Positions 47,658 through 51,941 of a DNA stretch of 64,000 nucleotides are shown piece by piece (the stretch's first letter is position 1; each line of letters opens with the position of its first letter). The stretch covers positions 124,001-188,000 of the forward strand of contig NZ_JAHOPF010000002.1 in NCBI RefSeq assembly GCF_019038595.1, in the 5' to 3' direction. This stretch comes from Kaistella soli. Lineage in GTDB: Bacteria; Bacteroidota; Bacteroidia; Flavobacteriales; Weeksellaceae. Below the pieces are notes generated by a model. It was not told the DNA's origin. It searched no databases and was given only the letters and a program-made list of their open reading frames with translations. Both the position numbers and the translations under genes were made by a program.

Positions 47658-48293
47658 TCACACAAACTCCCCAATGTCAAAATCACCAAAATCACTTTTC
47701 CGCAATGTGGAAGAGCCAGCTTCCGTTTCAGATGAGAGGGTACTATCCAAAAGCTCGGCAATTTTTCTGGAAGCACCCTCAACGGAATTTTCCAGCAGGC
47801 TGAATAATTCAGTTCCCTGCAATTTTTGCACTATCGCAACCGCTGTTTCCTTTTGAGATTGTTCCAAATTTTCTTTTTGGAGCAATGCCCCTACGGAGCT
47901 TAGTTCGTCATAGGTAACCCCTTGGGCAAGACTGTCATCGCCACCGGATATTCCGTACCTGTTCCATTCTTCTTCCTCTTCCTCCAAATCAGGTATATTA
48001 CTGAAAATTTCGTCCAGCTCTTCCTGCGGAATTTGAATACCTACGTTTTCATTTTCGTCGTATTCAATGTCTAAATTATCAGGTATTATTTCTTGTTCCT
48101 CTATTTGGCTTTCATTGGCAGCGTTTGGCACTAAAAGGCTTCTTGCAGGCTTGGGCTGACCCATAATATCGGGCAGTTTCGGATTAACTTTTTCCTGCAC
48201 TGGCTTATGCTCCGAACTTTTTTTAATAACAATCTTGTCCTGCATCAGCAGGGCAATGACTATGAGCAGGCATATCACAATTACTGTTTCCAT
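47658..48293 (-). CDS. traD: Conjugal transfer protein TraD-like
   Basis: The 211-residue protein has an N-terminal membrane anchor (METVIVICLLIVIALLM), a Glu-rich middle (EELDEIFSNIPDLEEEEEEW) and a C-terminal helical part ending FDIGEFV. It matches the TraD (DUF4122-like) proteins that follow DUF3408 proteins in these elements. It lies three bases after the DUF3408 gene. The hsd-like operon begins 130 bases downstream. Confidence 0.75.
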   Translation of the reverse strand: METVIVICLLIVIALLMQDKIVIKKSSEHKPVQEKVNPKLPDIMGQPKPARSLLVPNAANESQIEEQEIIPDNLDIEYDENENVGIQIPQEELDEIFSNIPDLEEEEEEWNRYGISGGDDSLAQGVTYDELSSVGALLQKENLEQSQKETAVAIVQKLQGTELFSLLENSVEGASRKIAELLDSTLSSETEAGSSTLRKSDFGDFDIGEFV

Positions 48294-48296
48294 AGC

Positions 48297-48737
48297 TTAT
48301 AAAATGGGTTTGTACTTATCATTGAAACTCTTGGTAATCTGCTCGCCAAATTCCTGGAAATGGTAATCCAGCAAATTGTCCAAATAGCCGTATATGGTTA
48401 TCTTGTCTTCGCCTATAACCTGTACAATACGTGACATCTTTTCGTGAAAATCCGGTCGGATGTAAACAGTTTTCCCGTCACGGGCATTGGTATCAGGTTT
48501 TTTGAAAAAGATACTTTCGTAGTCTGCTTCGTTTATCCTTTTGGTTTTGCTCTTTTCTTTAATCGCAGGTTTTTCCTGTGCCAGTTCTTTAGGCTTAATC
48601 TCTTCTTTTTCGGGTTCTTGAGCAGGCGGTTCAGGTGGAAGCTGCAAGCCCTCTTTTTTTACGCCATCTACCATCAGGTTCATCATAAGTTCCTCATTAA
48701 TATCAGGCGTGACTTTCTTTTTATTATCTTTCTCCAT
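48297..48737 (-). CDS. DUF3408 protein (TraB/TraC-like)
   Basis: The 146-residue protein has a charged, Pro/Glu/Lys-rich N-terminal half and a conserved C-terminal domain with KTVYIRPDFHEKMSRIVQVI and TIYGYLDNLLDYHFQEF. The second half looks like a ribbon-helix-helix type domain, typical of DUF3408. It follows parA by four bases. Such a protein beside a ParA could be its DNA-binding partner, which is an inference. Confidence 0.85.
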   Translation of the reverse strand: MEKDNKKKVTPDINEELMMNLMVDGVKKEGLQLPPEPPAQEPEKEEIKPKELAQEKPAIKEKSKTKRINEADYESIFFKKPDTNARDGKTVYIRPDFHEKMSRIVQVIGEDKITIYGYLDNLLDYHFQEFGEQITKSFNDKYKPIL

Positions 48738-48741
48738 ACGG

Positions 48742-49509
48742 CTATAATTGAATTATTTTTAAAAATTCGTCTATGAACAGGTCTAACTGACTGGCTTTCA
48801 TCAAACGTTCATCGGGAGGCATTACGGTAGAACGGAAAACGGTTTTGCTGTCCGTTTCGCTTTCTTTGCGGAAGCGGGTGCTATTCTTGATTTGGCTTTG
48901 CATCAGGCTTAACCCTAATTGCGCAATAAGCTGGTTATACACGCCATATAAGGGTGTGCTTTCCCTGCCATCAACCTGGTTCCAAAACAGGTTAATGTTT
49001 TCTATTGATGTTTCCCCTTTCTTCATAATCACGTCTTGTAAAAGCTGTGTGAAAATGAGCGTACTTTCCATTACCACACGGTCTGCCGTAATGGGCGTAA
49101 AAATGTGGTGCATTCCTGCCAATGCTTTCAAAATGCCGGGCGTATTCACAGTTCCAGGTAGATCAAAGAAAACCACATCAACCGGAACGGTAGAAGTGTT
49201 TACAAATTCGTGAGCCGCTTCCAATACGCTATCCGCTTTGTACTGCATAATGGGATAGGCTTTTTTGTTGATGGTCGTAAATTGTTTATATGCCAGCTTT
49301 TTCAAAGCCTCGTTTTCCATTACCATTGCTAAGTCCCTCGTCTTCATTTTTATAAGACTGTGCTGTGGAAAATCCGCATCAAATACGGCGACGTTGTAAC
49401 CCAATCGATAGTGCATCGTACTTGCAACAAGCGTTGTAAAAGTGCTTTTGCCTACACCGCCTTTTTGAGATGAAAAGGCGATAAATACTGTTTTGTGTTT
49501 TGAATTCAT
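48742..49509 (-). CDS. traA: ParA family ATPase (TraA)
   Basis: The 255-residue protein has the deviant Walker A KGGVGKST (16-23), DADFPQHSL and FFDLPGTVNTPG as in ParA/MinD ATPases. In CTnDOT-type elements this is TraA, the first gene of the tra operon. It may position or partition the element or the transfer complex. The start codon is at 49507-49509, and the sequence upstream is entirely occupied by a tetranucleotide-phased array. Confidence 0.93.
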   Translation of the reverse strand: MNSKHKTVFIAFSSQKGGVGKSTFTTLVASTMHYRLGYNVAVFDADFPQHSLIKMKTRDLAMVMENEALKKLAYKQFTTINKKAYPIMQYKADSVLEAAHEFVNTSTVPVDVVFFDLPGTVNTPGILKALAGMHHIFTPITADRVVMESTLIFTQLLQDVIMKKGETSIENINLFWNQVDGRESTPLYGVYNQLIAQLGLSLMQSQIKNSTRFRKESETDSKTVFRSTVMPPDERLMKASQLDLFIDEFLKIIQL

Positions 49510-49511
49510 AT

Positions 49512-49879
49512 TACTGCTGTTTTTAATTATTTATATATCCATTTACCTATGTCTGTATATCCGCAGTTACCTATCTGTGTACTGCTCTATATAGGTTTGT
49601 CGCTCTGTAGGTACTTTGATAGTTAGGCAGGTAATGATGCACCAAGCTATGTACTTGAATACATGCTTATAGCTGTATGCAGACAAGTATGTTAGTACCA
49701 ACAGACCTGTTTATTTATGTACCTGAATATGTCAGTACCTAACTACACAATCACGTATCTCAATAGGTACTTTTTTACATAGCTGATTGAGTACTTATGT
49801 TGTTACCTGCATACTTATCTATGCCCCTATATCTATCTGTTTGTAGGCACAAAGAAATGTAGATATATAGGTGCATCTA
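49512..49879. repeat. Tetranucleotide-phased TANN array upstream of parA
   Basis: Read in steps of four from 49512, most tetramers on the + strand begin with T, usually TA. From 49568 to 49879 I counted T first in about 62 of 78 tetramers and A second in about 53. Eight GTAC sites lie between 49579 and 49794, all in the same phase (spacings 32, 40, 44, 24, 16, 32 and 24). The pattern starts two bases from the parA start codon and stops sharply near 49880, next to the paired operator. It has no open frame and fits no feature type I know. Confidence 0.8.
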
Positions 49880-49884
49880 TTAAC

Positions 49885-49920
49885 GTGGCAGTGTTTGGCG
49901 TTCAAAGGCAGCGTTTGTCC
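49885..49920 (-). promoter_or_regulatory. Paired 16-bp operator upstream of parA and the TANN array (copy B)
   Basis: In gene sense for parA the boxes are GGACAAACGCTGCCTT (49905-49920) and CGCCAAACACTGCCAC (49885-49900), exactly 20 bases apart. The second is identical to a box before the coupling-protein gene. A leftward promoter here would transcribe the whole TANN array as the 5' leader of parA. Confidence 0.65.
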
Positions 49921-50098: not shown

Positions 50099-50154
50099 GG
50101 CAAGTTGTGTTTTGAGCATCTCGGAATGATTTCCGATGCTCAAAACAACTTGCC
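50099..50154. other. Long near-perfect hairpin before mobA, candidate oriT
   Basis: GGCAAGTTGT at 50099-50108 pairs exactly with ACAACTTGCC at 50145-50154. Further in, TTTGAGCATC pairs with GATGCTCAAA and CGGAA with TTTCCG, with two 2-base bulges. It lies 66 bases before mobA and the relaxase gene. Relaxases of this family nick beside an inverted repeat upstream of their genes, so this is the best oriT candidate; the nic site cannot be read. Confidence 0.5.
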
Positions 50155-50220
50155 CTTTGCAGGGGGCAGAAAACACCTTCCGAAGTCAGGGTTTTGTATG
50201 GATTTTAAAATGGATTAGTG

Positions 50221-50652
50221 ATGAACGATAACAACAAAAAGCAATTGAAAAAGACCGGACGCCGCCCCAAAGAAGACCCGGCGACAATACGGTACACCAT
50301 TTCCTTTAACGAGCAGGAACACGCCCGTTTTCTTGCCCTGTTTGATAAATCAGGTATGCAGGTAAAGGCGCACTTTATAACGTCCTGCATCTTTAACAAG
50401 ACCATAAAGACCATTCAGATTGACAAGGGAACGGTTGATTTTTATATGCGGCTGACCTCTTTTCATAGCCAGTTCCGTTCCATAGGTGTAAACTATAACC
50501 AAATTGTAAAGCTGCTGTACAAGAATTTTTCCGAGAAAAAAGCCGCAGCGTTTCTGTACAAACTGGAAAAGCAGACGGCTGAAATGGCAATGCTATGTCA
50601 GAAAATCATCCAAATAAGCGAGGAATTTGAAGCCAAACACCTGAAAAAATAG
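50221..50652 (+). CDS. mobA: Mobilization protein MobA (relaxosome accessory)
   Basis: About 143 residues; the ATG at 50221 follows a GTG at 50218 that could also start it. It has a basic N-terminus (KKQLKKTGRRPKEDPATIRY), a ribbon-helix-helix type segment (ISFNEQEHARFLALFDKSGM) and the conserved VNYNQIVKLLYKNF helix of the MobC/BfmC-type relaxosome proteins. It probably binds oriT and recruits the relaxase, whose gene begins nine bases later. Confidence 0.88.
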   Translation: MNDNNKKQLKKTGRRPKEDPATIRYTISFNEQEHARFLALFDKSGMQVKAHFITSCIFNKTIKTIQIDKGTVDFYMRLTSFHSQFRSIGVNYNQIVKLLYKNFSEKKAAAFLYKLEKQTAEMAMLCQKIIQISEEFEAKHLKK

Positions 50653-50660
50653 CGGTAGAA

Positions 50661-51941
50661 ATGATAGCAAAAATCGGAAGAAGCGCAAATTTATACGGAG
50701 CATTGGCGTACAATCAGCTTAAAGTAGAGAATGAAAACGGGCAGATTTTATTTGCCAATAAGATGATTGAAACCGCAAGCGGTCATTATTCCGTGGCACA
50801 ATTAGCCCAGTCTTTTGCCCCTTACCTGATAGCGAACCGCAATACCGAGAAACATACGTTGCATATTTCGCTTAATCCTGACCCGAACGACAAGGTAAGC
50901 GATGATAAGTTTAGGGAAATGGCAGAACAGTATATGCGGGAAATGGGTTACGGCGAACAGCCTTTTGTGGTATTCAAACACACGGATATTGACCGCAGCC
51001 ATATACACATTGTATCGGTTTGCGTGGACGAGCAGGGCAAAAAGATTTCGGACAAATTCGAGAAAATGCGGTCTATGAATGTGTGCCGTGAACTGGAAAG
51101 ACAACACGGCTTGATACCCGCAACCGATAAAGAACACAAGCAGAACGACAAGATTTTCCGTCCGGTAGATTATCGGGCAGGCGATGTGAAAAGCCAAATC
51201 GCTTCGGTTGTCCGCCACCTACCGAATTATTATAAGTTTCAGACTTTGGGCGAATACAATGCCTTGCTTTCCCTGTTTAATGTTACCACCGAAAAAGTGG
51301 AGGGCGAATTGCAGGGAAAAATGCGGCAAGGCTTATTATATATTCCTTTAAACGAGAAAGGCGAAAGAGCCGGGCATCCGTTCAAGGCTTCGTTGTTTGG
51401 TAAAAATGCAGGGCTTCCGGCTTTGGAACTGCATTTTGCAAAATGCAAAGAGGATTTAAAAGACCACCCAAGTAAGCAGACCCTAAAAGCTGCAATTTCT
51501 ATTGCTCTGAAATCCACAAATGATGAGCAGGCTTTTAAAAAGCAGTTGAGTGAACAGGGCATTAATGTAGTGGTCCGCCGGAACGATACAGGTCGTATTT
51601 ATGGTATCACTTTCATAGACCACAATTCAAAGGCGGTTTGGAACGGTTCACGCTTAGCAAAGGAACTTTCTGCCAATACCTTTAATGATTATTGGAACAA
51701 TAATATCAAACCGGAGATTAAAGAACCTGTCGTACAACTTCCAAAAACATCCACATCAAATGATGCAGATCTTCCTGCGGAAGAACCTCATCATTTGTTC
51801 GACTTCCTGAATACTACTGAAAAACACGAAGACGGTTTGATTGAGGCATTTGGCGGTTTGTTACCCGAAGCACAGGGCGATGATTACGAGGAACAGGATT
51901 TTGCTAACAAAATGAAGAAGAAAAAAAAAAGAAGACTGTAA
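50661..51941 (+). CDS. mobB: Relaxase MobB
   Basis: The 426-residue protein has the N-terminal relaxase domain with HTLHISLNP and the metal-binding HTDIDRSHIHIVSV (H107, D109, H114, H116). The likely nicking tyrosine is Y12 or Y17 near the start (SANLYGALAYNQL). The C-terminal part ends in a Lys/Arg-rich tail. It belongs to the MOBP-type relaxase/mobilization nuclease family of Bacteroides elements. It nicks oriT and leads the strand through the channel. Confidence 0.93.
   Translation: MIAKIGRSANLYGALAYNQLKVENENGQILFANKMIETASGHYSVAQLAQSFAPYLIANRNTEKHTLHISLNPDPNDKVSDDKFREMAEQYMREMGYGEQPFVVFKHTDIDRSHIHIVSVCVDEQGKKISDKFEKMRSMNVCRELERQHGLIPATDKEHKQNDKIFRPVDYRAGDVKSQIASVVRHLPNYYKFQTLGEYNALLSLFNVTTEKVEGELQGKMRQGLLYIPLNEKGERAGHPFKASLFGKNAGLPALELHFAKCKEDLKDHPSKQTLKAAISIALKSTNDEQAFKKQLSEQGINVVVRRNDTGRIYGITFIDHNSKAVWNGSRLAKELSANTFNDYWNNNIKPEIKEPVVQLPKTSTSNDADLPAEEPHHLFDFLNTTEKHEDGLIEAFGGLLPEAQGDDYEEQDFANKMKKKKKRRL

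Follow-up and report, generated by a model that had tools for sequence, protein, structure and literature searches.

A tetranucleotide-phased array upstream of parA as a proposed DUF3408-bound partition site in CTnDOT-like elements of Bacteroidota

The met boxes of MetJ are tandem 8-bp boxes, each made of two 4-bp halves, and are read by a ribbon-helix-helix (RHH) dimer. MetJ is a metabolic repressor with few boxes and no link to ParA, in which respects it is unlike the locus described here. A further comparison is with the ParF-ParG system of plasmid TP228, in which the parH site is ~100 bp long. The parH/O_F region, like our locus, has degenerate tetramer boxes upstream of a gene for a ParA-type protein; at parH/O_F the boxes are bound by a small RHH protein that has a flexible N-terminal tail and is autorepressing (PMC7308502, PMC5016525). 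However, the parH boxes are separated by AT-rich spacers (PMC7308502), whereas the array that we describe is contiguous, with a unit every 4 bp over ~350 bp and one word per clade. Moreover, there is no Pfam family match between ParG and DUF3408, and the carriers of DUF3408 are ICEs and related plasmids of Bacteroidota. The parS site of pSM19035, in the omega-delta system, also consists of contiguous tandem short repeats that overlap promoters, with one RHH dimer per repeat (PMC9499535, PMC5016525); omega requires at least four contiguous 7-bp repeats (PMC9499535). In that case the word is non-palindromic and 7 bp long, with 7-10 copies per site, whereas our locus has one site of ~89 degenerate units on a 4-bp step (8 bp in some clades).

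In type Ib partition modules, a repeat centromere precedes the operon, and the small centromere-binding protein combines an N-terminal tail, which is flexible and bears an arginine finger, with an RHH C-terminal domain; this protein is also a repressor (PMC5016525). By analogy, the module described here matches this layout: its ParA is a small Walker ATPase without an N-terminal DNA-binding domain, and a repeat array lies upstream of the par operon. Active partition of excised ICEs has a precedent in the SXT/R391 family (PMC4489591). There, a region resembling a centromere likewise precedes the motor gene of the srpMRC module, close to mob/oriT (PMC4489591), but the motor is actin-like (type II) and the repeats are 13 bp long, unlike a ParA-linked array of 4-bp units. 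In the open-access papers searched, we found neither a 4-bp-phased array nor a function for DUF3408. We think it probable that the array serves a type Ib-like ParA module of CTnDOT-like ICEs as its cis-site (both centromere and operator), and that its contiguous 4-bp half-sites are bound cooperatively by DUF3408 dimers. For this module we infer direct binding, dimer spacing, cooperativity, autorepression, stimulation of ParA and a partition function.

The array and its neighbouring genes

The window, by which we mean the whole 64-kb stretch of DNA that was analysed, has the following features around the array:

47658-48293, minus strand: TraC-like gene, leftward, after the DUF3408 gene
48297..48737, minus strand: gene for a 146-aa DUF3408 protein (PF11888, E=7.6e-35), co-inherited with the array class and proposed to be the centromere-binding protein that reads the array
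48742..49509, minus strand: parA, for a 255-aa ParA-type Walker ATPase without an N-terminal HTH (Walker A KGGVGKS at residues 16-22; Pfam ParA/CbiA/MipZ/AAA_31)
49524..49880, no strand: tetranucleotide-phased array, class I (TANN = N-TA-N or A-NN-T), ~89 units of 4 bp, from period-4 tests, segmentation and a register conserved in relatives
49887..49919, no strand: paired direct repeat GGCAGYGTTTGKC, copies GGCAGTGTTTGGC / GGCAGCGTTTGTC at 49887 and 49907, spacing 20 bp
50218-50652, plus strand: MobC_2 gene, rightward of the array
50661-51941, plus strand: gene for a MobA/VirD2-type relaxase, rightward of the array
53445, plus strand: gene for a T4SS coupling protein, rightward of the array

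The Pfam ParA/CbiA matches of ParA start at residue 9, and a relative in the PDB, 1wcv, is described as a “segregation protein” (E=7e-4). Plasmid records with the same gene order are annotated with mobA/mobB/mobC, ParA, DUF3408, DUF4134, DUF4133 and the TraG conjugative-transposon ATPase, which identifies the locus as the mob-tra junction of a CTnDOT-like element. Such elements are known for spreading resistance genes among Bacteroidota.

Positions 49512-49879, read in steps of four from 49512, comprise 92 tetramers. T is first in 79% and A is second in 68%, with positions 3 and 4 mixed, which bears out the initial annotation (T first in about four of five, A second in about two thirds, the rest variable). 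TA steps are distributed 48/1/8/0 among the phases modulo 4, such that one phase holds 48 of the 57. Period-4 power is 11.27, as compared to a mean of 0.70 and a maximum of 5.02 for 2000 dinucleotide-preserving shuffles, and there are excess matches at lags 4, 8, 12 ... 32 (z 4 to 7); the autocorrelation at lag 4 that the annotation had proposed to compare with shuffled sequence is therefore present. The top period-4 windows of the entire 64 kb are those in this stretch. The eight GTAC sites of this stretch, which lie from 49579 to 49791, are all in the same phase modulo 4, and several were said to lie at multiples of eight; their spacings are 32, 40, 44, 24, 16, 32 and 24, of which all seven are multiples of 4 and six are multiples of 8. 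Likelihood segmentation places the in-phase array at 49524-49880, beginning ~15 bp from the parA start codon and ending 6 bp before the paired repeat. Hence, the annotated limit at the paired operator stands, but the phase begins ~12 bp after 49512 rather than at 49512. A single phase is held across ~357 bp, a strict register over the whole site such as characterizes the contiguous RHH ladders of MetJ and omega. We propose that 49524..49880 is a DUF3408 ladder that would serve as centromere plus operator.

Other readings of the periodicity were rejected. Spectral tests of 49512-49879 gave no signal at periods 3, 5, 7 or 10.5; the absence of period 3 rules out a coding reading, and the absence of period 10.5 a helical-phase reading. 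TRF reports only a 2-copy 24-mer and half of the columns are free, so the array is not a tandem repeat of the microsatellite type. Searches of the array DNA against plasmids returned no match, as expected of a degenerate site.

Array words and phase in close relatives

A scan of contigs for relatives of the window parA yielded 80 loci, with 76-98% identity, in Flavobacterium, Chryseobacterium, Pedobacter, Sphingobacterium, Chitinophagaceae, Cyclobacteriaceae, Dysgonomonas and others; one of the loci, L081, corresponds to the window read in the opposite orientation. The initial annotation had called for an alignment of the regions upstream of parA in relatives. A period-4 array, mostly ~300-370 bp long, occupies the same place in all 78 loci with enough upstream sequence, yet the tetramers differ. 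The upstream peak ranges from 3.1 to 19.6 and in each of the 78 loci exceeds every other window of the same locus; the maximum period-4 power outside arrays across these loci is 3.7. There are two words, the window included: TANN in class I (34 loci, among them the window), and CHKK in class II (45 loci), the columns of which are C, A/C/T, T/G and G/T. ParA is ~90% identical across the two classes.

In public annotation, the region upstream of parA is in places assigned to “hypothetical proteins” or to an N-terminal extension of ParA (L111:2148-2501, L113:2067-2495 and L115:2207-2503); some plasmids likewise have annotated ORFs where the array lies. The annotated ORFs that run through the array in L111 and L115 are probably not real genes.

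The register survives insertions and deletions. Distinct indels were counted between arrays with 92% identity or more: 30 of the 31 have a length divisible by 4 (range 4 to 32 bp), as compared to 3 of 42 in the intergenic DNA that adjoins the arrays in these loci. This is not an artefact of alignment, as the aligner found all of 400 simulated indels of other lengths. When gaps were counted more broadly, at 80% identity, the share of multiples of 4 was just 51%, but alignments are unreliable at that level and the 92% set was used. Substitutions also differ among the columns: within class I, divergence is 0.095 in the T column and 0.104 in the A column, about half that of the free columns (0.181 and 0.190). 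Thus, the four-base phase is preserved through both indels and substitutions.

Could the phase have arisen from slippage of a neutral tetranucleotide microsatellite? Near-tandem copies (75% or more) account for 16 of the 30 multiple-of-4 indels, as such an origin would predict. However, the other 14, including indels of 24, 28 and 32 bp, are not copies of their neighbours, which indicates that slippage alone is insufficient. Furthermore, the rate of change in two of the four columns is half that in the other two, which are nearly unconstrained, and the phase of the whole array persists at one location, next to this pair of genes, even where divergence is large and the words are unrelated. We consider a neutral origin scarcely credible.

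Which protein follows the word? DUF3408 proteins from class I loci are 65-97% identical to the window copy and those from class II loci are 46-58% identical, with no overlap. For ParA, the TraC-like protein, MobC and the relaxase, the ranges of identity to the window copies overlap between classes. On gene trees of 78-79 loci, the array class changes once for DUF3408, 3 times for ParA, 13 times for the TraC-like gene, 15 times for MobC and 14 times for the relaxase. The low count for ParA is expected from linkage, because parA lies physically between the array and the DUF3408 gene. Linkage to the array class is already lost in the TraC-like gene, immediately after DUF3408, and in MobC, on the far side of the array. 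Differences fixed between the classes cluster in DUF3408 at residues 72-97 (arm and strand) and in the second helix; the only two in ParA are at codons 5 and 8, beside the array. Hence, DUF3408 is inherited together with the type of array. Nonetheless, the DUF3408 tree separates classes I and II by one switch only, and the perfect association on it counts as one event; replication comes from the other clades of a wider survey.

Arrays across the DUF3408 family

A PF11888 survey found DUF3408 in 16 of 396 genomes from the phylum, 23 of 295 from one order and 27 of 298 from the order of the window; none was found in viral contigs. Among distinct DUF3408 loci, 54 have an adjacent ParA and 18 do not. 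An array of period 4 or period 8 lies upstream of parA in 47 of the 54 ParA-adjacent loci (the 99th percentile of the period-4 background is 2.6, and its maximum of 13.7 comes from L029, itself an array in the background set). The remaining seven have no array signal, and in one of them, L162, a few TTTTACAC units remain. The words include AYWT in L147 (A 86%, T 88%), KMWW in L099, L112 and L139, TYAA in L129, YYRR in L142, and ANNT in L117 (Hymenobacter). Words of 8 bp are also found: TTTTAYNN in L102, and TNNNCGNN in L084, L115 and L120. The 8-bp clades (L084, L102 and L120) are consistent with a dimer that would span two 4-bp half-sites.

Across 53 diverse loci, the distance between motifs correlates with the distance between DUF3408 proteins given ParA (partial Mantel r=0.39, with 0 of 2000 permutations as high, although these permutations ignore phylogeny), and the correlation with ParA given DUF3408 is negative (r=-0.29). 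Together with the gene trees, this leads us to reject ParA as the reader of the word. The initial annotation had suggested a ladder of half-sites bound by an RHH protein, with either DUF3408 or ParA as the ligand. The comparative data support the ladder, and co-inheritance, the partial Mantel test and arrays that have no ParA nearby favour DUF3408 as the ligand over ParA.

Two loci have an array and DUF3408 but no ParA within ~5 kb. The array of L144 has a period-4 power of 9.4 (shuffle maximum 2.9). Its setting (L144:4828-7389) is a relaxase-bearing element in which a DUF3408 gene of 293 aa is followed, right after its stop codon, by the 4-bp array, and then by genes for a NikA-like MobC and a relaxase. 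L144 may use the ParA of a co-resident element. A possible parallel is SGI1, a mobilizable element that lacks its own ParA and has centromere-like parS sites with which it hijacks the parABS system of IncC (PMC10954446). The SGI1 sites, however, are inverted repeats read by the ParB of the helper, whereas L144 carries its own DUF3408. In L145 (4968-5180), an ATGN-like 4-bp-phased array with a period-4 power of 5.1 (shuffle maximum 2.7) lies directly upstream of a lone DUF3408 gene.

The arrays of L144 and L145 indicate that an array can exist for something other than ParA-dependent partition. Accessory proteins of the RHH type are familiar at oriT, and a DUF3408 ladder could function in conjugative transfer, as an oriT-proximal relaxosome or DNA-coating site, with ParA involved in transfer or in positioning the transfer apparatus rather than in partition. 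In nearly every close relative, the array sits between parA-DUF3408 and the MobC-relaxase genes, that is, between the tra and mob operons, where a role in transfer is equally natural; the position of the L144 array between DUF3408 and MobC, in an element with a relaxase but no ParA, is also as expected for transfer. Nonetheless, the 15 and 14 class changes on the MobC and relaxase trees show that the array is not co-evolving with the nicking machinery, and ParA adjacency is the rule among the distinct loci surveyed. We therefore regard a transfer function in place of partition as unlikely.

In a broader form of the partition reading, centromere-like arrays on a strict 4-bp step would occur throughout the phylum. 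Each DUF3408 subfamily would read its own degenerate tetramer and coat ~350 bp with ~44 dimers, the word would serve as a code for incompatibility, determining which elements are able to coexist in one cell, and the arrays would constitute a class of partition site distinct from parH. We consider this generalization to have an even chance of being correct. If the partition model holds, DUF3408, a family with no described function, would gain one, and these ICEs would have an active retention system with a recognizable centromere. RHH-like proteins, each matched to its own 4-bp word, would form a natural series that directly reveals a recognition code, and mutually incompatible elements would be predicted.

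Two or three tandem DUF3408 genes occur in several loci: L102 and L106 (from the same genome), L084/L105, L087/L100/L107, L115, L116 and L118. This suggests duplicated or heteromeric array-binding proteins.

Predicted structure of DUF3408, proposed mechanism and adjoining sites

Two segments of the window DUF3408 protein are relevant to a partition function:

48312..48473, minus strand: predicted RHH-like domain (strand KTVYIRP, helix 95-108, helix 115-142), from AlphaFold2 and weak Foldseek and profile matches
48648..48701, minus strand: N-terminal tail motif, residues 13-30, INEE.MM.LMVDG.KK.G, conserved across 79 loci

In the AlphaFold2 monomer, the N-terminal half is mostly disordered, with a short helix at the tail motif, and is followed by a low-confidence linker, an extended segment and two helices; pLDDT for the domain alone is 86. 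The order of extended segment, helix and helix is that of the RHH fold, in which case the ribbon would form only in the dimer. Foldseek matches are weak (best E ~3) and are led by the RHH proteins Reg576, ParD and MatP, and a domain profile weakly matches the RHH protein ORF56 (2k9i, E 0.17). Neither search gave a significant match to a solved RHH structure, and the full-length sequence had no match in the PDB. Pfam scans of DUF3408 proteins returned DUF3408 and not the ParG family (PF09274), and ParG and RHH_1 searches of Bacteroidota genomes yielded nothing usable for a comparison profile. On these predictions, an RHH fold for DUF3408 is likely. The tail motif is a candidate for the segment that contacts ParA.

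We propose that major-groove recognition by a DUF3408 dimer would cover 8 bp, or one pair of 4-bp half-sites, so that the uninterrupted run of ~89 tetramers would have room for ~44 adjacent dimers, assembled cooperatively into a filament. The DUF3408 tail would contact the nucleoid-bound ParA ATPase, such that the excised circular element would be positioned and retained. The filament would also repress the parA-DUF3408 operon, because the distal end of the array contains a promoter-like box:

49850..49856, minus strand: -7-like box CAAAGAA (TTCTTTG on the parA strand), conserved in both array classes

The consensus for the -7 element in Bacteroidota is TAnnTTTG, and it is by likeness to this consensus that the box would be a promoter element.

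The location of this box is also as expected if the array were only an operator, that is, a long site for DUF3408 autorepression of the parA/tra promoter with no role as a centromere. The array of L145, immediately upstream of its lone DUF3408 gene, is similarly placed. However, ~89 contiguous units far exceed the needs of an operator, ParA and a protein with a tail and an RHH-like domain are the standard gene pair for partition, and in L144 the array is downstream of DUF3408 rather than at its promoter. An operator without a centromere role thus seems distinctly unlikely.

An RNA leader was the other explanation offered initially. The position of the promoter-like box would place most of the array in the parA transcript, where it could act as a structured or regulatory leader of the parA/tra message, and some arrays fold better than their shuffles. 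The z-scores are uneven, however (-0.84 and -1.60 for the window, -0.38 for L112 and -6.4 for L111), and such values are an expected by-product of near-palindromic 4-bp units. No Rfam family matches at threshold, multiple-of-4 indels are ill-suited to a base-paired RNA, and the L144 array is 3ʹ of DUF3408 and is not a parA leader. As a primary function, an RNA leader is therefore very improbable, but an added leader role is possible alongside the proposed function of the array as centromere and operator.

Two further sites lie between the array and MobC. The paired repeat GGCAGYGTTTGKC is conserved in both array classes and hence is not part of the DUF3408 ladder; a regulator of the tra and mob promoters, which are divergent, probably binds there. 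Just upstream of MobC, at 50099-50154, are nested inverted repeats with 13-nt arms GGCAAGTTGTGTT / AAAACAACTTGCC together with TGTTTTGAGCATC / GATGCTCAAAACA, which are a candidate oriT or terminator.
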